Below are positions 45,900-56,814 of a stretch of 64,000 nucleotides of DNA, one piece after another. The translations under genes and the position numbers were made by a program. Under the pieces are notes generated by a model. The model was not told where the DNA came from. It did no database searches and worked only from the letters and a program-made list of their open reading frames with translations. Source of the stretch: Sphaerisporangium album (GTDB lineage: Bacteria > Actinomycetota > Actinomycetes > Streptosporangiales > Streptosporangiaceae); NCBI RefSeq assembly GCF_003323745.1, contig NZ_QOIL01000012.1, positions 62,001 to 126,000 on the forward strand, read 5' to 3'. Positions within the stretch are counted from its first letter, which is position 1. Each line of letters starts with the position of its first letter.

Positions 45900-46100
45900 A
45901 TGAGCATCACTGAACTCGGACGTACCGGGGGCGGCCCGGCCCCCGACGGGGGCGCCGATCTGGCCGTACGTGCGGAAGGGCTTGTGAAGACGTTCGGCGA
46001 ACACCGTGCCGTCGACGGGATCGACCTGAACGTACGCCCCGGTGAGATCTTCGGCGTCCTCGGCCCGAACGGCGCCGGCAAGCCGACTGTCAATCTATGA
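45900..46100 (+). pseudogene. 5' fragment of a DrrA-type ABC ATPase gene, split by integration
   Basis: Reads from ATG 45900 through the N-terminal ABC domain ([20 protein letters not shown]) to Walker A GPNGAGK, where native sequence ends at 46082. The frame then runs five codons into the mobile element and stops at 46100. The rest of the gene is at 56815-57657. Joining the two halves at the shared CGGCAAG restores GPNGAGKTTTLRML in frame. A 66-aa product can be made here but has no complete nucleotide-binding site. Confidence 0.93.
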
Positions 46101-46107
46101 CCCCTAA
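46076..46107. other. attL of the integrated element
   Basis: The 7-bp core CGGCAAG at 46076-46082 marks the left junction with the DrrA gene. GCCGAC (46082-46087 region) and the arm GACCCCTAA (46099-46107) belong to the element side. The crossover dinucleotide is inferred as AA at 46080-46081, inside the Walker A lysine codon AAG. Confidence 0.85.
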
Positions 46108-46141
46108 ACGAGCGGGCTTCCCCTTCGCATGGGTGCCCCCT

Positions 46142-46296
46142 GCCTGGCCGTCCCGTATGCCGTCATCCCGCCTCGTAGAGGGAGCGGGCCGGGGGCTAGG
46201 GCACAAGATGCAGCGCCCCGCTGGACGAACGATCTTGTGCCCTAGCCCCCGGTCTGCTTGGCTCTGCCCGGGTGACGGCGTGCGGGACGGCCAGGC
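46142..46296. repeat. 155-nt nested inverted repeat next to attL
   Basis: Outer arms 46142-46169 and 46270-46296 pair over 27 bp with three positions that would be G-U in RNA. Inner arms 46189-46209 and 46232-46252 are a perfect 21-bp inverted repeat. The 22-nt apex contains a third small stem, CAGCG-ccc-CGCTG. Wide asymmetric loops separate the stems. Such long imperfect hairpins are typical of single-strand origins of rolling-circle replicons, which would fit the Rep gene; a structured RNA or strong terminator is the alternative. Confidence 0.8.
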
Positions 46297-46371
46297 TTCC
46301 ACAGCAACCCGCTACGGCCTTTCGGCAACGCGCCTTGCCGCTCCCGGAGCCGGATTCCCCCGCCGGAGGCG

Positions 46372-46857
46372 TCAGACACCGTGTAGCTCCTTGACCATAT
46401 GGACACTTGGCATATCCATGATTATCTCGCGCTCGGTCACTGTGTAGCCGTGCTTGGCGTAGAGGTCTACCGCAGGATGCTGGTCTTCTCCCGTGAGGAG
46501 CCGGATACGTTGATAGCTCAGATCCGCAGCCTTCTCTTCGAGGAGAAGCAGTATGGCCTTGCCGTATCCCCGGCCCTGGAACTCGGGATACACGCGCATC
46601 CGTAGCAGCTCGCATATCTCGGTTGTCACGCGGCGAATGCCGCCCATGGCGATGACCTGCCCTGCCACCTCTCCCACTAACAATGCTCCCCCAGCCGCCC
46701 GACTGTATGTCCTTTCGATGTCGTCGAAGTCTTCACCGTCGTAGTAATCATCAGAGGGGTCGATGCCTGCCGCTCGCAATCCGTAGGCGTTGAGCTGGAG
46801 AATCTGCTCCATGTCATGCGGTCGGTACTCACGAATATTCAAAGCAACTTGGTACAT
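46372..46857 (-). CDS. GNAT family N-acetyltransferase
   Basis: 161 aa from ATG 46857, overlapping by one base the stop of the HTH-TPR gene (TGATG). The acetyl-CoA loop is RVYPEFQGRGYGKAILLLLE (Q/R-x-x-G-x-G/A). Other GNAT strands are clear (ALLVGEVAGQVIAMGGIRRV; HGYTVTEREIIMDM). The substrate is unknown. Translational coupling to the regulator gene suggests both act together, for instance as a cargo stress or resistance unit. Confidence 0.85.
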   Translation of the reverse strand: MYQVALNIREYRPHDMEQILQLNAYGLRAAGIDPSDDYYDGEDFDDIERTYSRAAGGALLVGEVAGQVIAMGGIRRVTTEICELLRMRVYPEFQGRGYGKAILLLLEEKAADLSYQRIRLLTGEDQHPAVDLYAKHGYTVTEREIIMDMPSVHMVKELHGV

Positions 46858-48695
46858 CAATCTGTTTCTCCGCCTGGTGGAAGCGCAAGGGATTGCTGGA
46901 GGGATTTAACTTCAGGGGCCTGTCGATATCGAGGGGGAATTGCGGCCCGTATCTCAAGGGCGCGCGTAATGATGATCGGCGATCGACGTTCTGAAGGGAG
47001 TTCCGAGATCAGATCCGCCGTGTATCGCGCCGCCTCACCGGGACGACCCTCGCGGGCAAGGCAGAGAGCATGGTCAATGCGGATGAGACTCGGGTCGATG
47101 AATTCGCTCGGGTTATAGAGCTGGAGAGCGAGCGATTGGGCCTCATAAGCCGCTGAATAATCACCTGTATTTGTAAGAGTGTTACTACGATAAAAATGCA
47201 ATTGAGCGGCCGTGTATCCGTAGGAGTGCTGCTCGGTGATCTGGCTGTGGAGCTGATCGAATGCCGCCTCGGCTGATGAGATAGCCGCGTATGCCGCTGC
47301 CCTGTCTCCGATCTGGGCTAGTGCGCGTGCTTGGACTGCGGGCGCCCAAAGGGCTGCGACGCATGGCGTTTTCGCTACCAGACCTATTGCTTGTTGGGCG
47401 AGGCGGATACTTCCATGCGGATCACCCCAATAGAGAGCACTTACCGCATGGCGAACGAGAACCCACGCCTGCAACGCTCGATCTTCGCTCTCCTGCGCGG
47501 CCTGGGTAGCGGTATAAAACCAGGCTCTCGCCTGCCGATGTTTGCCCAGATTGATAAGCGTTGTGGAGAGTAGCCCGGCCATTCTTGCGGCGGAGTGGAA
47601 TAGGCCACGGCGTTGTCTCGTTAATAGTGGGCGTTCGAGGAGTCCGTGAAGCTCTGCTAGGTCTCCGCCAATGTTGAATAGAAATGCTACGGGGGGAGTG
47701 GTGCGGTATGTATATCCATAGCTGTCTGCCACGCTCCGCCAATGGTCGTCGGTTCCATCAGTGATGCTTGTATTAGCGAGAGTGCGATTTAACTCCTGGT
47801 GAAGGATTGAAACTGCGTCTACTATCTTTTGGGGGTCGGGCGAGAAACTGGTACTCGGTTCTGTGAATAGGTTTGTGATGCCGCCTATTTTGCGTCCAGC
47901 CGAGGAGTCCTTTACATCGGATTTCGGTGAGGGAATTATGTTGGGGGAGATGAAGCCGAGCGTATCGAGTGGCTGGTTGAGATAGCGTTCGATTACGGCG
48001 CGATTATCTTTGTGTGGCCAAGGGGTTTGGGCGGTTTCCCAGCGTCGGTATTGTCGGGTGCTGATTGAGATGCGGCGGCGAAGTTCGCCGTCTTGGTACA
48101 TGCGTTCTGCTACTAGGCTGAGTTCGAGCGCCATGCCCTCTTGTGAGAGGTTGCGGGCAATGCGGGCCTCCCGTAATGGGTAGGTTTTCGCACCGCCTGA
48201 TATAAGGATGTTGCGGGCGCCCGACTTGGTCGTTGATTCGCTTTGTTTTGTGGCGACGTCTCGTGATGTCATAGACGATGACTGTGGACGGTCGTCATCG
48301 TCACAGCTATCTGCCTGCTCGATTTGGGCTTGTGCGACCCGGTCATAGAGTGCGAATTCGTCGTCGGCGAGCAGGGCGCGCACACTGGTCTGGTAGATGC
48401 GCGCCATTATTTGCAAGTTGTAAGGAGTTGGCCGGCGTCCCCCCGTTGGCCAGACTTCAAATTGGTAGATTCGACCCTTGGCCATTGTCGGCTCGCCGGG
48501 ATCAATTTCGTTCCAGCGGTTGGCCACTTCCTCATGTGTGAGGTTGTGTGCCCAGCGATAGGCGCGGCGGGGGGTGCTGTCAGGGTAATCGGCCATCCAA
48601 ACCTGGGCAATTTGATCCCAGGTGAAACCGCGCTGTCGGAGCTGACTTGTGCGTTCTGCGCGCTGCCGCCGGGTTGGTCCTGGGTTCTGGCTCAT
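46857..48695 (-). CDS. HTH/TPR-type regulator, 612 aa
   Basis: N-terminal 90 residues show an atypical HTH (RGFTWDQIAQVWMADYPDST, then RRAYRWAHNLTHEEVANRW) common in actinobacterial 'XRE-like plus TPR' proteins. A second XRE-like HTH lies near residue 175-225 (LREARIARNLSQEGMALEL; TRQYRRWETAQTPWP). From about residue 290 to the end there are TPR-like helices (ALQAWVLVRHAVSALYW; AAYAAISSAEAAF; AYEAQSLALQLYN). The gene is visibly less GC-rich than the chromosome (AT-rich third positions), which marks it as foreign. Product probably senses a ligand through its TPRs. Confidence 0.75.
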   Translation of the reverse strand: MSQNPGPTRRQRAERTSQLRQRGFTWDQIAQVWMADYPDSTPRRAYRWAHNLTHEEVANRWNEIDPGEPTMAKGRIYQFEVWPTGGRRPTPYNLQIMARIYQTSVRALLADDEFALYDRVAQAQIEQADSCDDDDRPQSSSMTSRDVATKQSESTTKSGARNILISGGAKTYPLREARIARNLSQEGMALELSLVAERMYQDGELRRRISISTRQYRRWETAQTPWPHKDNRAVIERYLNQPLDTLGFISPNIIPSPKSDVKDSSAGRKIGGITNLFTEPSTSFSPDPQKIVDAVSILHQELNRTLANTSITDGTDDHWRSVADSYGYTYRTTPPVAFLFNIGGDLAELHGLLERPLLTRQRRGLFHSAARMAGLLSTTLINLGKHRQARAWFYTATQAAQESEDRALQAWVLVRHAVSALYWGDPHGSIRLAQQAIGLVAKTPCVAALWAPAVQARALAQIGDRAAAYAAISSAEAAFDQLHSQITEQHSYGYTAAQLHFYRSNTLTNTGDYSAAYEAQSLALQLYNPSEFIDPSLIRIDHALCLAREGRPGEAARYTADLISELPSERRSPIIITRALEIRAAIPPRYRQAPEVKSLQQSLALPPGGETD

Positions 48696-49030
48696 GGGTG
48701 GCCCTGCCCGTGGGGTCGAGTGATGTGGTGACGGAGGTTGCCGTCTCTGACTGTACGTGTTCCCGAAGTGGGGGGGACTGGTGACTTTCGGGGGACCCGC
48801 GCCCTGTTGGTCCTGCTCAGGCGCCCTAGTCGCATGGTAACCAATGCGGTGGCCGTTTTTGGGCTCGATCCCCGTAATGCTTTGACTGCCGGTGGTGCGA
48901 TGGGCGGGAGGAGGGGCGGGGTCGCACTACACGTGACCGGGTGCGTGACCGGCAGATCCAGTAATGACGGGACCCGCAGGCGCTGACGACGCCGTACGGG
49001 TCCCTGAACCGCACATCGGAGGTGCGATCT
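48696..49030. promoter_or_regulatory. Divergent promoter region between HTH-TPR regulator and ATPase-like gene
   Basis: 335 bp with no supported gene. It must hold the promoters of the two diverging genes. A GGAGGTG ribosome site at 49018-49024 belongs to the plus-strand gene. No repeat or operator was recognised with confidence. Confidence 0.3.
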
Positions 49031-49618
49031 ATGGGTGATCCTAGGACATTGGAGGTACGCCGCAAGTCGGTCATTGCGGGACGACTGTTAGGAGTCGTAC
49101 AACTGCTCGCAAATCCGGAGAGCGTTGCTTTGGCGCGCGGCTTCGTGCGGCGGAAGCTCGGAGCTGATCACCCGGTGGCCGATGAGGCGACGCTGTTAGT
49201 GTCGGAGCTGTTCACGAATTCGGTCCTATATTCGGATTCCCGGCACGGTGGAAGCGTCATGGTCGCGCTCGCTGATTGCTGGGAGTTCATTCACATAGAT
49301 GTTGTGGACGCGGGAGGAAGCTCCTTCCCGCATATCAAGCGGGAAACTACCACCGAGCTGGAAAGCGTGGCCGAGGGTGGGCGCGGACTCTCGCTCGTTG
49401 ACCAACTGTCCACCAGATGGGGCATTGTCAACGATGCCGAAGGGCGGACGGTATGGTTCGAACTGATGTATCGGCGGGCCGATGTGGTCAACGAGAGTAA
49501 TGCGATTCAGGCGACGGCTAGACGAGCTGCTTGCACGGTCGCGGAGAGCCTGGCACTAGAAGAGGCGTCGCATCCTCTCAAGCCTGACGGTCAGATGCGC
49601 TGGCTGGGGCGGTTCTAA
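49031..49618 (+). CDS. HATPase_c-type (anti-sigma/serine kinase-like) ATP-binding protein
   Basis: 195 aa from ATG 49031 after GGAGGT. GHKL-type ATPase similar to RsbW/SpoIIAB-like regulators widespread in actinobacteria: N box region DEATLLVSELFTNSVLYSDS, G1 box HIDVVDAGGSSFP and G2 box GGRGLSLVDQLSTRWG. It lies divergent from the HTH-TPR regulator, a pairing typical in Streptosporangiales and Streptomyces, where ATPase and HTH protein form a regulatory pair. Target unknown. Confidence 0.85.
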   Translation: MGDPRTLEVRRKSVIAGRLLGVVQLLANPESVALARGFVRRKLGADHPVADEATLLVSELFTNSVLYSDSRHGGSVMVALADCWEFIHIDVVDAGGSSFPHIKRETTTELESVAEGGRGLSLVDQLSTRWGIVNDAEGRTVWFELMYRRADVVNESNAIQATARRAACTVAESLALEEASHPLKPDGQMRWLGRF

Positions 49619-49624
49619 TTTTGT

Positions 49625-49696
49625 GGGGACGAATAGGCGGAAGCGTCAAGCTCTGCGCCTTGCCGGATTCTCGGAGGTTCGAGTCCTCCCGTCCCC
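49625..49696 (+). tRNA. tRNA-like sequence (probable pseudo-tRNA or tRNA mimic)
   Basis: 72 nt from acceptor to acceptor, the length of a canonical tRNA before the discriminator base. Acceptor stem GGGGACG / CGTCCCC pairs perfectly (7 bp). The T-arm is textbook: GGAGG-TTCGAGT-CCTCC. The middle is degenerate: an anticodon-like stem CAAG/CTTG around a loop ctctgcgc, mispaired D-arm region too short. No CCA is encoded. A functional tRNA would be unusual; a pseudo-tRNA from an earlier integration, or a tRNA-like RNA, is more probable. Confidence 0.5.
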
Positions 49697-49698
49697 GC

Positions 49699-49714
49699 GC
49701 AGTCCTCGGACTGC
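49699..49714 (+). terminator. Short hairpin behind the tRNA-like sequence
   Basis: Perfect inverted repeat GCAGTCC-tc-GGACTGC begins three bases after the tRNA-like sequence. There is no T-tract behind it, so terminator or processing signal is a guess. In the following spacer (49715-49975) a second inverted repeat, GTCCCCGG at 49883-49890 and CCGGGGAC at 49904-49911, is the only other structure seen. Confidence 0.4.
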
Positions 49715-49975
49715 ATGCTATCGCGGTCCATTGTTTGTACTGCGCCAAAGGGCCGCGAAGGTATCGGGGATCTCGGGGAATGTGATGTCGAGTGCGTGTG
49801 GCCTCTACTGGGGCGCCGGGAAATGGAGCCGCCTATCAGTGCGTAGTGGATGACATGGTCAATGATGTGTTCACCTGTGGTGGTCCCCGGCCGCCTGACC
49901 TTGCCGGGGACTATCCATTTAACGTACTCGGAAGGGTGATGAGGAAAAGTGGGCATCACAGGAGAGATCAAGTAC

Positions 49976-50113
49976 ATGTGTGCGAACAACAGTCATCACA
50001 ACTGTGCGGGGAAGGAGTGTACGTGCCCGTGTCACACGTCCCAGAACGGCAGTAGTCCTGAGGCGGACGGGGAGGTCCGGGTTCTTGAGCCGCTGTTGAT
50101 GGTCTGCGCTTGA
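49976..50113 (+). CDS. 45-aa Cys/His-rich peptide with SQNGSSP motif
   Basis: Begins at ATG 49976 with GGAGAG about nine bases upstream. Residues 2-20 are rich in Cys and His (MCANNSHHNC, then CTCPCH), able to bind metal. Then comes SQNGSSP (residues 22-28), identical to a motif in the unrelated 44-aa peptide encoded downstream. The C-terminus is hydrophobic and ends in Cys-Ala. No signal peptide. It lies upstream of the isoaspartyl methyltransferase-like gene on the same strand. The shared Asn-Gly motif makes it a candidate methyltransferase substrate (inference). Confidence 0.65.
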   Translation: MCANNSHHNCAGKECTCPCHTSQNGSSPEADGEVRVLEPLLMVCA

Positions 50114-50396
50114 TCGTGACGCCGGGCTTCTCATGCGGGAAGCCCGGCGCGTCCTGCCCATGAGCTGGGCGGCGGCGCGGTGACCACTCCGACCCGTGCC
50201 GTCGCCCACCCCTGGAACTGGCATGCAGGGGACATGGCGTGAGTCGATTTTCGTTTGCGACAAATACCATCACTGGTGTCCATTTTCGGGCTCCGGCTTG
50301 TTGTTTGAAGGTCTACCCGGCTCGGCTTAACGGAGCTACGATGGCCGAGCAAGCTCCAACGAAAAATGATCGACTAAAGGGAAGGAGAGGCAGTCA

Positions 50397-50531
50397 ATGG
50401 GTCAGCATGAGGGCGACAAGCCTTCGGACAAGCCGGTGGAGAAGCCGAAGCCGACGCCTGCGAGTCAGAACGGATCGAGCCCTAAGCCTCCGGGTCAGCA
50501 TGGAGGAAAAGGGGACAAGGGCGGCAAGTGA
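50397..50531 (+). CDS. 44-aa Lys/Pro-rich peptide with SQNGSSP motif, coupled to the methyltransferase
   Basis: ATG 50397 has GGAAGGAGAG upstream. The peptide is a mix of Lys, Pro, Gly, with SQNGSSP at residues 23-29 and a GGKGDKGGK tail; very polar and probably unfolded. Its TGA overlaps the GTG start of the methyltransferase gene (GTGA), so both are translated together. The codons of the shared heptapeptide differ between the two tiny genes, so it is not a recent DNA copy. A second open frame with its own GGAG site starts at 50341 in another phase and may be spurious. Confidence 0.7.
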   Translation: MGQHEGDKPSDKPVEKPKPTPASQNGSSPKPPGQHGGKGDKGGK

Positions 50532-51643
50532 ACATTGGTGAGCGTATTGCCGCCCTCACCGGTCAGTTAGCGGATCTAGATGGCAGGTGGCGGGAGGCGA
50601 TGCATGCCGTTCCCCGTCACCTGTTCATCCCGGACAGGGCATGGTGCCATCCCGAAGACGGATCTATGGGATATCTGATCGATCGAACGGCGGACCCAGA
50701 GGTGTGGCTGTCTGCTGTGTATTCCGATGCCGCGATTATCACGCAGATCGATGAGGGAACGGTCGATGTGGCGGCGGGGCAAGGTGAGTACACCTCCTCG
50801 TCGTCGGCTCCGGGTATCGTCGCGGCAGGCCTAAGCCTTCTCAACCCCTACGAGGGGGATGAGGTTCTGGAGATCGGCACGGGGACGGGATGGACGGCGG
50901 GACTGCTGGCGCATTGTCTCGGCGACGACAATGTGACGAGTATCGAAATCGATCAGGCCGTATTCGGTAGAGCCGTCGAGAATTTGAAGGCTTCCGGGCA
51001 TGTGCCAAGACTGATTCTTGGCGACGGCGCGAAAGGATGCTCTGAGAGAGCGCCGTATGACCGGGTGCACGTCACTTGCGGAGTGAGCGAGGTGCCCTAT
51101 GCCTGGGTGGAGCAGACCCGGGCCGGTGGGCTTCTCGTTGTTCCGTGGATGCCGTATTGGGAGGGCGGGCACTTGGCCCGGTTGACCGTGGTCGGGGACG
51201 GCACCGCTGTGGGGAGGTTTCATCGGGGCGTTGTCTTCATGCCGATGCGTTCACAGCGGTGGAGGGACGTCTCGTTAGAAGGGTCGTTCCGCGATTCGGC
51301 TACCGCTCTTGATCCGCGTCGTGTGGTGTGGTCTTCAACGGGGGCTGATGTCGCTGTGGCGGGACTGCTGCCGGATGTGCAAGGCGCGCACGCCGGGGAG
51401 GAAGGCGGCGGGTTCCGGTTGTGGCTGTCGTCTGGCGACTCAGAGGCGCAGGTGCACTATGCGCCCGGCTTCAGGCGGGTTTCAGTCTTCCAGCGGGGGC
51501 CTCGTGACCTGTGGGATGAGGTGGAGGCGGCTTACTTGCGGTGGGTTTCGTGGGGTGAGCCGGAGCGTGACCGGTTCGGGATGACCATCACGCCAGAAGG
51601 GCAACGCGTCTGGCTTGACTCCCCGGATAACCCGATCGGGTAG
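50528..51643 (+). CDS. Protein-L-isoaspartate O-methyltransferase-like enzyme
   Basis: 371 aa. The N-terminal ~220 residues are PCMT/PIMT-like: SAM motif I is VLEIGTGTGWTAGLL (residues ~113-127), the acceptor-side SSSAPGIVAAGLSLL matches the PIMT 'S-x-P-x-x-V-A' loop, and YDRVHVTCGVSEVPYAW is the post-motif region. A ~150-residue C-terminal extension is of the kind seen in methyltransferases of peptide maturation systems (for example ATP-grasp peptide TgmC-like). No ATP-grasp or other maturase is nearby. It overlaps the 44-aa peptide gene by 4 bp. Confidence 0.85.
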   Translation: MNIGERIAALTGQLADLDGRWREAMHAVPRHLFIPDRAWCHPEDGSMGYLIDRTADPEVWLSAVYSDAAIITQIDEGTVDVAAGQGEYTSSSSAPGIVAAGLSLLNPYEGDEVLEIGTGTGWTAGLLAHCLGDDNVTSIEIDQAVFGRAVENLKASGHVPRLILGDGAKGCSERAPYDRVHVTCGVSEVPYAWVEQTRAGGLLVVPWMPYWEGGHLARLTVVGDGTAVGRFHRGVVFMPMRSQRWRDVSLEGSFRDSATALDPRRVVWSSTGADVAVAGLLPDVQGAHAGEEGGGFRLWLSSGDSEAQVHYAPGFRRVSVFQRGPRDLWDEVEAAYLRWVSWGEPERDRFGMTITPEGQRVWLDSPDNPIG

Positions 51644-51688
51644 GTGGGCGCCCTTCTTGCGCTGTGCGATCGGGTGCCACTTGTGGAT

Positions 51689-51720
51689 GGCCCTCACCGG
51701 GAGCGTTCCGGTTGAGGGCC
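51689..51720 (+). terminator. Strong hairpin behind the methyltransferase gene
   Basis: GGCCCTCA pairs with TGAGGGCC, extended inside by CCGG/CCGG with one extra base, and followed by ttctgc. It lies 45 bp after the stop codon of the methyltransferase and should end its transcript. Confidence 0.7.
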
Positions 51721-52102
51721 TTCTGCATGCTTGCGTGTAGGTCGGCGTGGGCCGTGGAAGACAGGTCTGGGTACCTGCGGTTCTTTCGGCAAAGACGAAC
51801 TTGGGCGGGGAGAGTTCCGGCAGTGTACGGACTCATGCGCCCCCCTCAGTGCCTAGGAGAGCGGTGGGGCCGGCGAAATGGCCGTAGGCCACCCGTAGGG
51901 CGACCGTGAGGGAGTTTGGCCGGCGCCACTGCGGCGGATGGTCGATCTTGGACTGTTCCGCGGCTTGATGCTGAATGATCTTGGTTGGTTCTGGGGTGTG
52001 CTGGTGTGTGCCGGGGCCGTCGCCTGAGGACGGCGCGCCCCCGGGACCGGCCTCCAGGCCGCATGCCCGGGGAGCGCTGGCCGCCCGCAGGGCGGCGGCC
52101 CC
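51721..52102. other. Gene-free spacer with GC-rich repeats
   Basis: About 380 bp between the two terminators without a supportable gene. It holds several short GC-rich inverted repeats (for example GCCGCCCGCAGGGCGGC near 52079-52097), but nothing that can be named. It may carry rep-related or origin sequence. Confidence 0.3.
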
Positions 52103-52124
52103 GGGCGGCGCGTCAGCGCCGCCC
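52103..52124 (-). terminator. Terminator of the GntR-type gene
   Basis: Perfect 9-bp stem GGGCGGCGC / GCGCCGCCC with the 4-nt loop gtca, located 28 bp after the stop codon of the minus-strand regulator gene. Confidence 0.75.
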
Positions 52125-52152
52125 CTTGAACCAGTAAAGAAACTTTGAGCCG

Positions 52153-53040
52153 CTATATGACCAGGGCTATGCCTTCTTCGGCCAGTTCCTCGGGGGTGAA
52201 CAGGCCGTTGGGGTCGTCGGCTATTTCTGCGCCGTGGGCGATCTCGTATCGGTTGGCCGCTGCTTTGACTTCGGTGACTTCTAGCGGGTGGCCTTGGTCG
52301 TCGGTCATGGTGCGGCGGATGATCAGGATGGCTTCGGCGTAGTCCATGCCGAGTGTGGTTCGTTCGTCTTCGTAGGCGATGCGGGCGGTGGTGAGGGTCA
52401 CCCATCGGACCGGGCCTCGGTCGCGTTGAAGCTGCTCGTAGAAGAACTTGATCCGCTTGCGGTACTGGTGGTAGCGCTTCTGATCGTCCCAGTCCGGTAC
52501 AAGGTCGGCGTTGGTGTAGCTGTTGATCTCGAAGCGGGGTGAGTAGCCCTGGCTCCATGTGGCGTGCCGGTGGATGACCGGGTGCCCGTTGCGCACGCCT
52601 AGCATGATCGCGATGTCGCGGTTGGCTGCGATCTTGCCGTCGTCGTAGGGCAGAGAGCCGCCCTCGCGCTTGGCGTCGCGGTGGAAGGTCTCCCAGCCGA
52701 CTTTGCCGAACGGCCGGATCTCTGGGTGGTAGGCGGGGCAGGCAAGGTCGGGCCTGTCCTGGTTGGTGATCAGGATCACCTCACGCTCGGGGGCGGGCCG
52801 GACGAACGACCCTCGGCCACGCATGACGTAGATCAGCCCTTCGGTCACAAGGGTGTCGATGGCCTTGCGGACGGTGGGCCGGGACACCCCGTGCTTGCGA
52901 GTCAGTTCCGGCTCGCTCGGCAACGGGCCGCCGGGTGGGTATCGGCCGTCCAGGATGGCGGCGCGTAGCTCGGCGGCGATCACGCGCCACCGGACGTCTT
53001 TGTCCTCGGCCCGGTCTTCGGTCCTGTCGTCGGTCTCCAT
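52153..53040 (-). CDS. GntR family regulator with UTRA domain (KorSA-like)
   Basis: 295 aa. GntR winged HTH at residues ~16-82 (IAAELRAAILDGRYPPGGPL; TRKHGVSRPTVRKAIDTL) followed by a UTRA ligand domain (residues ~110-285). GntR/UTRA repressors such as KorSA control replication of pSAM2-type elements. It diverges from rep; two direct copies of TGTACTACAGGT lie in the shared region and are good operator candidates. Start ATG 53040 after GAGGGAGAGG. Confidence 0.88.
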   Translation of the reverse strand: METDDRTEDRAEDKDVRWRVIAAELRAAILDGRYPPGGPLPSEPELTRKHGVSRPTVRKAIDTLVTEGLIYVMRGRGSFVRPAPEREVILITNQDRPDLACPAYHPEIRPFGKVGWETFHRDAKREGGSLPYDDGKIAANRDIAIMLGVRNGHPVIHRHATWSQGYSPRFEINSYTNADLVPDWDDQKRYHQYRKRIKFFYEQLQRDRGPVRWVTLTTARIAYEDERTTLGMDYAEAILIIRRTMTDDQGHPLEVTEVKAAANRYEIAHGAEIADDPNGLFTPEELAEEGIALVI

Positions 53041-53075
53041 GGGAACCTCTCCCTCGCGCCATCCGTCCTACTACT

Positions 53076-53126
53076 TGTACTACAGGTTGCATAGACTGTC
53101 GATGTCGGGCAGCATGTACTACAGGT
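53076..53126. promoter_or_regulatory. Pair of 12-bp repeats between the GntR-type gene and rep
   Basis: TGTACTACAGGT occurs at 53076-53087 and again at 53115-53126, 39 bp apart (near four helical turns). The second copy lies in a perfect inverted repeat ACTAC-ag-GTAGT, 30 bp before the rep start. The arrangement fits cooperative repressor binding over both divergent promoters. Confidence 0.65.
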
Positions 53127-53157
53127 AGTGGTGACTGGCGGTGGGAGGTGGTTGGTC

Positions 53158-54687
53158 ATGAGCAAGGGAGAACAGATCAGCGACAACACGGAGCGACAGG
53201 GACGGCAGGGGGTACCGGAGTGGATGGCCGAACTGGTGTCGGTGGTCAACGATCCGGGGTTTGAGCGGTGGCGGTCGATGGTGGCCGCGACGGGCGGGTG
53301 CTCGAATCCGATCCATCTGGCCGGGGAGTCGATGGTGCTGGATTCGGCAACCGGTGAGGTGCTGCACACCTACGACACGTCGGCCGAACCTTCGGGGTAT
53401 CTGCTGGTCGCCTGCGGCAACCGGCGCTCGTCGGTCTGCCCGTCGTGTTCGGAGATCTACCGGGCCGACACCTTCCAGCTCATCCGGGCGGGCCTGTCGG
53501 GGGGTAAGGGCGTGCCCGGCAGTGTGAGCGCGCATCCTCGGGTGTTCGCCACGCTCACCGCCCCGTCGTTCGGGCCGGTGCATACCCGGCGGGAGAAGAA
53601 CGGGCGGGTGCGGGCCTGCCGTCCACGTGCCCGCGACAAGGTGTGTGAGCACGGCCGCCCGGTCGGCTGCCACCAGGCGCACGACCCGCGTGACGAGCGG
53701 CTGGGGCAACCGCTGTGCCCGGAGTGTTACGACTATGCCGGGGCGGTGCTGTGGCAGGCGCACGCGGGGGTGCTGTGGCACCGGTTCACTCTGGCCATGC
53801 GTCAGGAACTCGCCGCGCTCGCGGGCATGAGCCGACGCGCGTTCAACAGCCGGGTCCGGGTGTCGTTCGCGAAGGTTGCCGAATACCAGCGGCGGGGCCT
53901 GGTGCACTTTCACGCGGTGATCCGGCTGGACGGTCCGGACGGGGCGAGCGAGCCTCCGCCGGACTGGGCTGATGTGCGGCTGCTGGTCGCGGCGATCCCG
54001 GCGGCGGCTTCTCGGGTGGAGGTGGACACCCCGGAAAGCGCCCTGGGGGTGCGGCGGCTGGTGTGGGGTGATCAGCTCGATATCCGGCCGATCATCTTGG
54101 GCACGACGTTGGAGGGGGTGAACGAGACGGCGGTGGCGGGTTACATCGCCAAGTACGCGACCAAGGGCGCGGAAGCGTCGGGGACGGTGGACTACCGGCT
54201 GTCCTGCGGGCCGTGTAAGGGGTCGGGTCGTACCGGGAGGCTGCGCGGGGTGTGCGGGCGGTGCGCCGGGACGGGGCTGAAGCCGGGGCTTCACCTGGAT
54301 CTGTTGCCGGTGACCGAGCATGCCCGGCGGATGATCGCCGTGTGCTGGGAGCTGGGGGCGCGGCGGGAGTTCGCCGATCTGCGGCTGCGGCCGTGGGCGC
54401 ACATGCTCGGGTTCCGGGGGCACTTCTCCACCAAGAGCCGCCATTACTCGACCACGCTGGGGGATCTTCGGGGGGCGCGCGGCGATCATCGGGCGCAGGA
54501 GGCGCGGGCTCGGCTGGGGCTGCCTGCTCCGGGGGATGACACGACGCTGGTGATGGGGCATTGGCGGTTCGCCGGGTCGGGGTACACGCCGGGTGAGGCG
54601 ATCTTGGCCGAATCTATTCGGCAACGGGTGGCTACTGCTCGGGCGATCGAAAGTGAGCGGGCGGGGCGGGATGGGGAGGCTCGTTGA
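53158..54687 (+). CDS. Replication initiator (RepSA-like, rolling-circle type)
   Basis: 509 aa from ATG 53158, with GGAGGTGG upstream. Family signature of pSAM2-like Rep: an N-terminal Cys-rich region (VACGNRRSSVCPSCSEIYRA), the metal-binding HUH-like motif in GLVHFHAVIRLDG (near residue 250), the tyrosine-containing VAGYIAKYATKGAEASG (near residue 330), and a DnaJ-like zinc ribbon CGPCKGSG/CGRCAGTG. The protein would nick and start replication of the excised circular element. It is divergent from the GntR gene. Confidence 0.88.
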   Translation: MSKGEQISDNTERQGRQGVPEWMAELVSVVNDPGFERWRSMVAATGGCSNPIHLAGESMVLDSATGEVLHTYDTSAEPSGYLLVACGNRRSSVCPSCSEIYRADTFQLIRAGLSGGKGVPGSVSAHPRVFATLTAPSFGPVHTRREKNGRVRACRPRARDKVCEHGRPVGCHQAHDPRDERLGQPLCPECYDYAGAVLWQAHAGVLWHRFTLAMRQELAALAGMSRRAFNSRVRVSFAKVAEYQRRGLVHFHAVIRLDGPDGASEPPPDWADVRLLVAAIPAAASRVEVDTPESALGVRRLVWGDQLDIRPIILGTTLEGVNETAVAGYIAKYATKGAEASGTVDYRLSCGPCKGSGRTGRLRGVCGRCAGTGLKPGLHLDLLPVTEHARRMIAVCWELGARREFADLRLRPWAHMLGFRGHFSTKSRHYSTTLGDLRGARGDHRAQEARARLGLPAPGDDTTLVMGHWRFAGSGYTPGEAILAESIRQRVATARAIESERAGRDGEAR

Positions 54688-55130
54688 TCGCTGACTTCTT
54701 ACCGGGGATGGATGATGAGAGCCTTGGCTGCGAGACGGCGGGGCTGCTGCACGGTGAGGGTCGCGAGGACAAAGACAGCGCCGAAGGCTCCGATACAGGG
54801 GTTAAAGGCGCTGTGGCCTGTGGTTATGCTCCGACGCCGGCCACGACGGCCCCCCGGGTGGGTGGGCGGGCCGACGAGCGCAAGGGGCAGGCTCGGCTGT
54901 CTGGTGGGGATCGTGGGCAGGGGGGCCGATCTGGGGCCGGACAGCAGGGGAAGCGTAAGCGGCGCGCCCGTGCAACCCCCGGGGTCGGCCCGGCGGCGGA
55001 GTTGCTGGAGGCGGTGCGTAACCAGGCGCGGCGGGATGCTGCGGCGGCGTCTGCGGTTGATCGGGAGGAACGCAACCGGGCGTTGACGGCGTTGGTGCGT
55101 CACACGCGGCATGCCAGAGGGGCCGGATAG
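54684..55130 (+). CDS. Hypothetical basic protein coupled to rep
   Basis: 148 aa from TTG 54684, which overlaps the rep stop (TTGA) and sits five bases after GGGAGG; an ATG at 54708 is the alternative. The N-terminal part is acidic and Gly-rich, the centre Gly/Arg-rich and low complexity, and the last ~50 residues are helical and basic (ELLEAVRNQARRDAAAAS). The xis gene of pSAM2 lies in this position, but this protein does not look like Xis. It may be a small accessory or directionality factor (inference). Confidence 0.55.
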   Translation: MIADFLPGMDDESLGCETAGLLHGEGREDKDSAEGSDTGVKGAVACGYAPTPATTAPRVGGRADERKGQARLSGGDRGQGGRSGAGQQGKRKRRARATPGVGPAAELLEAVRNQARRDAAAASAVDREERNRALTALVRHTRHARGAG

Positions 55131-55143
55131 GTCATCTCTGGCC

Positions 55144-55176
55144 ACAGCCCCGGATCATGCACGGGTCCGGGGCTGT
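55144..55176. terminator. Bidirectional terminator between convergent element genes
   Basis: Perfect 11-bp inverted repeat ACAGCCCCGGA / TCCGGGGCTGT with an 11-nt loop between the stops of the plus-strand hypothetical gene (55130) and the minus-strand integrase (55195). Confidence 0.8.
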
Positions 55177-55194
55177 CGTCTGCCTGATGCCGGT

Positions 55195-56757
55195 CTACCG
55201 GCCGATGATCGAAATGGAGTCGGCGGGGTACTTGTCCGGCGTCCACCGTCCCTTACGGGGAAGCGGATGAATGATCACCTGGTCCACGTAGCGGCGCGCA
55301 ATGGTCGCGCGTGCCTCGGCCATAGAGGGCTCGATGTCCAGCCAGGTCGCGATCAGGTCCTCTTTGCTGGTGGTGACGGCCTGCTCCTTGGCGAACTCCT
55401 GGCCAAGTTCCCGCTTGAATCCGTCGATCTCCACGCGTAGATCACGCATGACCTTGCCCGCGTCGGCCACCGTCCATCCGCTGTCGGGGTCCTTGGCCGC
55501 GTCCCGCGCCTCGATGATCCGCTGTTCCCGAGAGCTGATCTCCTGCTTCAGGCGGGCGATCTCGGCCGGTGAGGTGGCCGCGACAGCGGTAGCGGCGTAC
55601 TCCTCCTCGATGCGGGTGAGCACGTAGGTGCTGATCAGGTCGTCTACCCAGTCCTTGTTACGACCGATCTTGCCGCATCCCCCGATGCCCTTGGCGCACA
55701 CGTACATGTCGGCGCGGGTACCGCCCGGCTTCTTGACCCGTAGCTTGGCCGCGCACAACCCGCACATCACCAGACCGGAGTTCGGGTACTTGCGCATGCC
55801 CTGCCCCGGCTTGGCCAACGCCGGGTCCGAATGCCGCCGCAACCCCCGGGCTGCCTGATTCTTCTCACGCGGGGTCTTCGGGAACCGCGTGATCAGCTTC
55901 TCCCACTTGGCCGGATCGATCACCGGCGGCCAATTCCCGGCCCCCACGATCTCATACCCATGCGCGACCAACCCGGCGCGCTTGGGCGCAAGGATCGTCG
56001 TCTTGACCTCATCCCGGGTCACCCACGGGGTGCCGTTCAACCGGGTGAACCCCTCGGCGTTCCAGTGGTCCATGATCGCGGTCCACCCCAGACCGTCAAG
56101 CGCCATGTCCGCGCCCGTGTCGAGATACCCCTGTGCCCGCTCGTCCACGTGGGTCATGTAGCCGATGCCCTTGTCCGGGTCGGGCGGCAGATAGCCCAGA
56201 ATCGGGCTCCCGCCGTGCGGCAGACCGTTCTCCCGGCGCTCCTCGTGCTTGCGCTCGACACGTTCCCCGATGCGCTCGGACTCGGCCGCGTCGGCGGCGG
56301 CAAGGATGCGGCCGAGCATCCGCCCGTCTGCGGTGGTCAAGTCGATGTCACCCGACTTCACCGATACCAGACGAACCCCGGTCCGCTCCACAAGCGAGAT
56401 GATCCGCTCATACTCGGCGGGCCTGCGGGTGAGCCGCGCATTGGTCACGTACCCGATCAGGTGAAGATGACCGGCCTCGGCATCGGCTATCAACTGCTCA
56501 AAGTCCGGCCGACGCTTCTTGCTGCGGGTCGACGCGCCGATGTCGTTGTCACAGTAGCGGCGTACCTCGGTCGCGCCCTTCTCGATGACCTTCGCTGTGG
56601 CGTCCATGTCCTGACGCTTGACCCCCAGCTCAAGCCCTTCGTCATCATCGGAGATCCGTAGATAGATGCCCGCGACCATGGGAGGAACGACAGGCGGCGG
56701 GGCCTGCCCCTCCTCCAACGGCCATACCTTGATGCCTCCGCCGATGATCTCGCTCAC
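55195..56757 (-). CDS. int: Large serine integrase
   Basis: 520 aa from GTG 56757. The N-terminal resolvase domain has the nucleophile S36 and R34 in IYLRISDDDEG, with GVKRQDMDATAKVIEKGA typical of the family and helix E region AADAAESERIGERVERKHEE. Then a recombinase domain (GWTAIMDHWNAEGFTRLNG), a zinc ribbon (VMCGLCAAKLRV; CAKGIGGCGKIGR) and a C-terminal coiled-coil region (IARLKQEISSREQRIIEARD). It is about the length of other actinobacterial large serine recombinases, starts within 60 bp of attR and should insert at the DrrA Walker A site. Confidence 0.92.
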   Translation of the reverse strand: MSEIIGGGIKVWPLEEGQAPPPVVPPMVAGIYLRISDDDEGLELGVKRQDMDATAKVIEKGATEVRRYCDNDIGASTRSKKRRPDFEQLIADAEAGHLHLIGYVTNARLTRRPAEYERIISLVERTGVRLVSVKSGDIDLTTADGRMLGRILAAADAAESERIGERVERKHEERRENGLPHGGSPILGYLPPDPDKGIGYMTHVDERAQGYLDTGADMALDGLGWTAIMDHWNAEGFTRLNGTPWVTRDEVKTTILAPKRAGLVAHGYEIVGAGNWPPVIDPAKWEKLITRFPKTPREKNQAARGLRRHSDPALAKPGQGMRKYPNSGLVMCGLCAAKLRVKKPGGTRADMYVCAKGIGGCGKIGRNKDWVDDLISTYVLTRIEEEYAATAVAATSPAEIARLKQEISSREQRIIEARDAAKDPDSGWTVADAGKVMRDLRVEIDGFKRELGQEFAKEQAVTTSKEDLIATWLDIEPSMAEARATIARRYVDQVIIHPLPRKGRWTPDKYPADSISIIGR

Positions 56758-56785
56758 CTGGTCGCCCCTTCCTCCCGAACTGCCC

Positions 56786-56814
56786 TTAGGGGTCCTAGTC
56801 TAGTTGTCGGCAAG
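56786..56814. other. attR of the integrated element
   Basis: The arm TTAGGGGTC (56786-56794) is 13 bp before the core CGGCAAG (56808-56814), after which DrrA sequence resumes. Reuniting the element side of attR and attL gives attP: TTAGGGGTC, 13 bp, CGGCAAG, 16 bp, GACCCCTAA, with a perfect inner dyad GTCGGC-AA-GCCGAC around the presumed crossover AA. Confidence 0.85.

Follow-up and report, generated by a model that had tools for sequence, protein, structure and literature searches.

Imiditides are a kind of ribosomally synthesised and post-translationally modified peptide (RiPP), reportedly described in 2023. In these peptides an Asp is methylated, closes to an aspartimide and opens to Asp or isoaspartate (isoAsp), and the RiPP-associated homologues of isoaspartyl methyltransferase (PIMT) are able to act on Asp besides isoAsp (PMC13001092); type I pamtides are described as two-gene clusters of a Gly/Pro/Asp-rich precursor of about 45 aa and a PIMT homologue (PMC10787088). 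The number of type I pamtide precursors reported is 1,414 (PMC13001092). A pair of this layout, the gene of a short peptide (peptide 2) and that of a methyltransferase, lies in Sphaerisporangium album, in a stretch of 64,000 nucleotides of contig NZ_QOIL01000012.1 (positions 62,001 to 126,000), the whole of which is called the window. From sequence comparison, and with moderate confidence, the pair is taken to be a two-gene imiditide-like (type I pamtide-like) unit with an Asn-Gly core, carried as cargo by an integrated element with a RepSA-type initiator and a serine recombinase. A unit of this layout no longer comes as a surprise; what is new, and testable, is the Asn core.

The unit and its closest known counterparts

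50397..50531, + strand: precursor-like gene of peptide 2, 44 aa, ATG at 50397, SQNGSSP at residues 23-29
50469..50474, + strand: codons AAC GGA of Asn25-Gly26, aligned with the core Asp that relatives conserve (12-row alignment)
50528..51643, + strand: PIMT homologue, PAMT-like, 371 aa, PCMT match at residues 88-243 and an extra C-terminal domain beyond
51542..51562, + strand: WXXXGXP motif, here WVSWGEP, at residue 339 of the methyltransferase

Peptide 2 consists of a leader-like MGQHEGDKPSDKPVEKPKP, the core ASQNGSSP and a basic tail, and a hand count gives 9 Gly, 8 Pro, 8 Lys and 3 Asp; a GAAGG resembling a ribosome-binding site (RBS) precedes its start, and its stop codon and the methyltransferase's GTG start overlap within GTGA. 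The methyltransferase scores 100 bits with Pfam PCMT and 304.4 bits with NCBIfam TIGR04188 (methyltr_grsp), which is under the curated cut-off of 380 and is the top NCBIfam model, far above the PIMT models. The extra domain spans residues 244-371 and carries the WXXXGXP motif described for RiPP-associated PIMT homologues (PMC13001092). The best solved structures that match the enzyme are PIMTs, with which it has its catalytic domain and fold in common; no RiPP-associated PIMT structure is named among the 50 structure matches listed or the 10 PDB sequence matches.

Imiditides and type I pamtides (NmaA-NmaM, SpaA-SpaM) share with the window the two-gene layout, the short linear precursor rich in Gly, Pro and Lys immediately ahead of the enzyme gene, the PIMT homologue with a WXXXGXP C-terminal domain, and the lack of a neighbouring ATP-grasp. 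Peptide 2 agrees with the imiditide precursor description (some 45 residues, with much Gly, Pro, Asp and Lys), though it has only three Asp; the unit differs from these systems in sitting on an integrated element, and in that the conserved modified core Asp is absent and Asn-Gly stands instead. By sequence, the pair is a member of the imiditide family by descent, with the class-defining Asp looked for and not found, and it is therefore filed as a variant. The tested SpaA/SpaM pair comes from Streptomyces sparsogenes DSM 40356, and a locus from S. sparsogenes with the same precursor-enzyme layout (L049; survey loci carry L numbers) was recovered here; ATCC 25498 and DSM 40356 are presumably the same strain.

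Graspimiditides, the PIMT-modified graspetides of TIGR04188 systems, are linked to the window enzyme by its best NCBIfam model; in those systems an ATP-grasp ligase stands beside the methyltransferase, whereas none was found in the whole window (tblastn with the ATP-grasp of L081, E<=1e-3). No lanthipeptide or lasso enzyme was present in the six neighbouring proteins scanned (46.3-56.8 kb). In one graspetide isoAsp occurs at Asn83 and was taken as spontaneous (PMC10787088). The same genome also holds a graspetide-type unit (L081, G000:C34), in which a precursor-like open reading frame (ORF), an ATP-grasp and a PIMT homologue lie in a row.

The sequence-only reading had described a PIMT-like methyltransferase after two tiny ORFs, without ATP-grasp or lanthipeptide enzymes, as a maturase-free peptide-modification module on a mobile element. 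The PCMT match bears out the enzyme, the ORF places, the SQNGSSP residues, the differing codons and the GTGA overlap were all confirmed in the sequence, the missing maturases are indeed missing from the window (ATP-grasp) and the scanned neighbours (lanthipeptide), and the unit does lie within an integrated RepSA/serine-recombinase element. A module of peptide 2 and its methyltransferase is likely; as a kind of system, it is already known as imiditides or type I pamtides.

Relatives were collected as 79 loci from a scan of named genomes, to which 100 further stretches were added; the methyltransferase has a match at E<=1e-40 in 193 of the 297 genomes of the window's family, its own genome included. 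A near-complete enzyme was present in 202 loci, 195 of them distinct and the window among them. The same reading had proposed a search for short ORFs before PIMT-like genes; a short hydrophilic ORF was called at the enzyme start for 141 of the 195 distinct enzymes (54 without a call), with a loose caller and at least nine doubtful calls (L085, L045, L052, L070, L197 and L221 unconvincing by eye; L048, L065 and L233 doubtful). From L110 onwards, the loci were covered over only about 0.7-1.5 kb upstream. ATP-grasp matches occurred at L081, L212, L219 and L239, none with a called precursor; where flanks reached up to 5 kb the count was 0 of 61 loci, and the window gave none either, as judged by tblastn with the single query protein from L081, which distant ATP-grasps could escape.

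Asn and Asp at the core position

MAFFT alignments were made for four precursor groups, which hold 54 of the 141 called rows; these were picked after the motif was known, for including or resembling Asn-bearing precursors. The core column has Asp in 45 rows and Asn in 8, with one unclear: 11 Asp and 1 Asn in the window group, 9 and 4 in the L135 group, 16 and 2 in the PIPP group, and 9 and 1 in the Q group, where L063 is counted as unclear (Gln as aligned, although a small shift would put its Asp-Gly there). Asn25 of the window aligns with the conserved Asp column, which is Asp in 11 of the 12 members of its group. The sequence-only reading would be refuted by homologous loci in which Asn-Gly is not conserved, and taken literally this is the case, most aligned relatives having Asp there. 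Precursors of the PIPP group contain another acidic cluster, DDKGDG, which makes it doubtful which residue is modified in them. Asn as a modified core residue is not named in the available parts of PMC13001092 or PMC10787088.

Fitch parsimony on the enzyme tree, with L242 (outside the 54 rows) added and L063 left out, gives four changes with Asp at the root, and hence four separate Asp-to-Asn events. The Asn-core groups are the window, L135/L153/L158/L137, L215/L235/L242, and L031; the L135 group of four has a support of 1.0 and the L215 group 0.999. Within the L135 group Asn-Gly is constant while the preceding residue varies (Lys or Trp), and between L215 and L235 the codons around Asn-Gly differ synonymously. 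L172 (SNG) was rejected as an Asn-core member, since the Asp typical of its group is still present (NKDQN versus NDDEN), and L028 (SDTNG) was left out of the count as unclear. Enzyme residues special to the Asn-core members were limited to I71 (26% in others) and P282 (58% in others), which are not convincing. In L242 the precursor-like stretch with KNGHKP appears to continue in frame into the enzyme gene; precursor and enzyme may be fused there.

Gly comes next after the core Asn in 8 of 8 cases and after the core Asp in 28 of 45 (10/11, 5/9, 4/16 and 9/9, in the group order above). That Asn is the sole clear replacement of Asp is a stronger hint than this preference for Gly, and one that is weakened by the choice of rows.

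Asn-Gly deamidates via a succinimide. In the proposed mechanism the C-terminal domain of the enzyme would bind the charged precursor, Asn25-Gly26 would spontaneously lose ammonia to give a succinimide and then Asp or isoAsp, and the enzyme would methylate the product, driving its return to the aspartimide, as the relatives do with an encoded Asp; the deamidation step would be a built-in delay before the enzyme methylates the site and keeps it as an aspartimide. Spontaneous deamidation and enzymatic recycling would thus be joined in one system, in which the peptide would prime itself. The wider proposal, of an imiditide sub-kind with an encoded Asn-Gly core, self-activating by deamidation, with at least four origins and spread in the window's case by an integrative element, is put forward tentatively, as an idea with somewhat less than an even chance.

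Several points, besides the choice of rows and the lost class-defining Asp, weigh against an Asn-Gly core as the modified site. The product of the per-group Asp-Gly frequencies for the four events is about 0.13, so that the constant Asn-Gly is not significant alone and the Gly preference proves nothing. Each Asn-core group has few members (1, 4, 3 and 1), and node support is weak for the window (0.66) and for L031 with L076 (0.18). Peptide 2 still has the Asp residues D7, D11 and D40. No intact precursor was found in L111, L112, L114, L116, L119 and L123, relatives in the window clade, among which L111 has the closest enzyme by identity (71-72%). The unit is thus prone to decay, and the one in the window may be decaying as well.

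The last point is also a ground for reading the window's unit as a decaying imiditide pair, in which a single-base change turned Asp into Asn and modification of the peptide has ceased; this is considered unlikely, at about one chance in four. L119 and L123 do have tail-like remnants that lack a start codon, and the pattern in L111, L112, L116 and L123 suggests frequent loss of the peptide gene among close relatives of the methyltransferase. The window gene, however, keeps an intact frame, the RBS-like site and the stop/start overlap, Asn-Gly is maintained both in the clade of four and in L215/L235/L242, and apart from the unclear row only Asn replaces Asp in the aligned rows.

It is improbable that another Asp of peptide 2 is modified (D40 in KGDKGGK, or D7 or D11 of the leader) and that Asn-Gly is incidental. 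The leader is orthologous in L139 and L001/L110, and D7 and D11 fall within the part conserved with L139 and L110, which would favour them; NmaA is still modified after removal of its first 20 residues, though to a lesser extent from the loss of 15 onwards (PMC13001092), and this speaks against a leader Asp as the site. D40 has no counterpart in L139 or L110, and the column with Asp in nearly all of the window group is the core column.

Peptide 1 and the sequences around the unit

49976-50113, + strand: ORF of peptide 1, ATG at 49976, Cys/His-rich, SQNGSSP at residues 22-28
49915..50207, + strand: peptide 1 cassette, 83% identical to G000:C29:56610-56903 of the same genome, judged to be outside the unit
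50210..50396, + strand: 5' region kept with L001 (alignment to L001 over 50210-51670, 73%)
49022..49618, + strand: HATPase_c_2 protein of anti-sigma type, a relative of which also precedes the precursor in L139

Upstream of peptide 2 a second tiny ORF encodes peptide 1, for which a GTG at 49949 is an alternative start (54 aa). The two ORFs are less than 300 bp apart and encode SQNGSSP with differing codons. The longest string common to both reached seven residues in 0 of 200,000 composition-keeping shuffles and six in 11, with the 54-aa form of peptide 1, and a chance match is unlikely for this pair taken alone. Among the 495 ORFs of at least 40 aa in the window, however, an exact 7-mer is shared by 163 non-overlapping pairs (56 of the 163 with at least five distinct residues, 11 within 1 kb); SQNGSSP is therefore notable for the two peptides and not for the window.

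The cassette contains the ORF and a GC-rich hairpin (50120-50149), which is stable (z -2.36), yet received no call in a terminator scan. Between the cassette and its paralogue every indel within the ORF has a length divisible by three, so that peptide 1 is probably a real gene, although a one-base indel lies just before the ORF. The paralogue reads AKQNRGNELAG where peptide 1 has SQNGSSPEADG, and no methyltransferase lies in its 3.1-kb locus; on the same contig, the nearest match from this genome is some 22 kb off. Peptide 1 has matches at E<=0.1 in 21 of the 297 family genomes, of which only the two in its own genome are strong (1.3e-27 and 2.5e-16), the remainder being at E 0.0038 or worse; no match was found in plasmids or phages, and the cassette as a query in 10 other genomes of the genus gave one weak match (47 query bases, E 2.3e-4). 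Two short matches (73 and 49 bases) to the cassette neighbourhood, lacking the ORF, lie at G000:C27:11803-12443. An FtsK-type gene (C27:5748-6269) is some 5.5 kb away, and the matches may belong to another integrative element that shares the segment.

The stretch that the unit shares with L001 opens at 50210, just past the cassette, whose end is at 50207. In L139, of the same genus and the closest relative with an Asp core, a HATPase_c_2 gene is followed after 213 bases by the precursor MGKHDGDKPSDKPVEKPKPNSDGARPDRPGQHEKPGKK (TTG start) and an overlapping methyltransferase (69%), and no peptide 1-like gene lies in those bases; in the window these genes follow one another in the same way, and the 778-base gap that separates the HATPase gene from the precursor contains a tRNA-like sequence and the cassette. 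The paralogue, which has neither SQNGSSP nor a methyltransferase beside it, the cassette boundary and L139 make it probable that peptide 1 stands outside the unit, as an unrelated inserted neighbour and not a substrate; the common heptapeptide is best seen as coincidence. The sequence-only reading had both peptides as substrates or carriers of the enzyme, recognised via SQNGSSP; the exact, differently encoded match at short distance and the likely reality of the peptide 1 gene speak for it, but against these findings, and with strong relatives of peptide 1 confined to its own genome, it is very improbable. Cysimiditides, or type II pamtides (FcaA, TceA, NalA), resemble the locus in having a PIMT homologue as sole enzyme, and peptide 1 nearby is Cys-rich; their two CXXCXGXG motifs with Asp between are, however, absent from peptide 1 (MCANNSHHNCAGKECTCPCHTSQNGSSP...), and its paralogue is not beside such an enzyme. 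A housekeeping isoaspartate-repair PIMT (Pcm/PCMT1) beside a chance reading frame, for which the PCMT domain and the PIMT-like fold could be cited, is hardly credible given the C-terminal WXXXGXP extension, the lead of TIGR04188 over the PIMT models and an upstream precursor ORF that aligns across clades.

A conserved RNA in the 5' region was rejected, the fold of 50225-50396 being no better than shuffles (z 0.26) and no Rfam family reaching its gathering score in the window (49560-50400 gave weak sub-threshold matches only). The tRNA-like sequence at 49625-49698 has a 7-bp acceptor-like stem and a T-arm-like stem-loop, with no ARAGORN call and sub-threshold tRNA-like Rfam matches. HATPase and XRE genes were rejected as general partners of the unit; they neighbour 14 and 30 of the 195 loci, many of which have little flank.

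The carrier element and the meaning of an Asn-Gly core

46083..56814, no strand: integrated element, 10.7 kb, with the 7-bp direct repeat CGGCAAG at 46076-46082 and 56808-56814
52153..53040, - strand: GntR/UTRA regulator
53128..54687, + strand: RepSA-type replication initiator (Pfam RepSA 565 bits, cut-off 34; profile match 541 bits, cut-off 700)
55195..56757, - strand: serine recombinase with a Resolvase domain (Recombinase and zinc-ribbon matches weak, below cut-off)

The element interrupts an ABC-transporter ATPase gene in its Walker A region; the gene is whole in 5 of 5 same-genus loci (those of at least 90% identity among 11 same-genus genomes searched), in which the flanks adjoin with a 7-bp overlap. 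Inverted arms of 9 bp lie just inside the repeats (46099-46107 and 56786-56794), and the element also contains a TPR regulator and a GNAT protein besides the peptide-methyltransferase unit. Actinomycete integrative and conjugative elements (AICEs) include a RepSA-type initiator, an integrase and an FtsK/SpoIIIE-type transfer protein among their parts. The window element resembles them in its RepSA initiator and serine recombinase; it differs in that none of the 11 matches to the FtsK/SpoIIIE-type family PF01580 in its own genome falls within it (C4:108083-118814), the sole match on C4 being at 258130, and it is therefore not a complete conjugative AICE.

If Asn-Gly cores are true substrates, the rule that the class has one conserved methylated Asp would be too narrow, and genome mining that requires this Asp would miss units of the kind seen here. 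The canonical task of PIMT, which concerns Asn deamidation, and its task in RiPP pathways would then be linked in one natural substrate, and the slow chemical first step could serve as a timer; the Asp-core relative L139 is a natural matched control for the Asn-core pair of the window.
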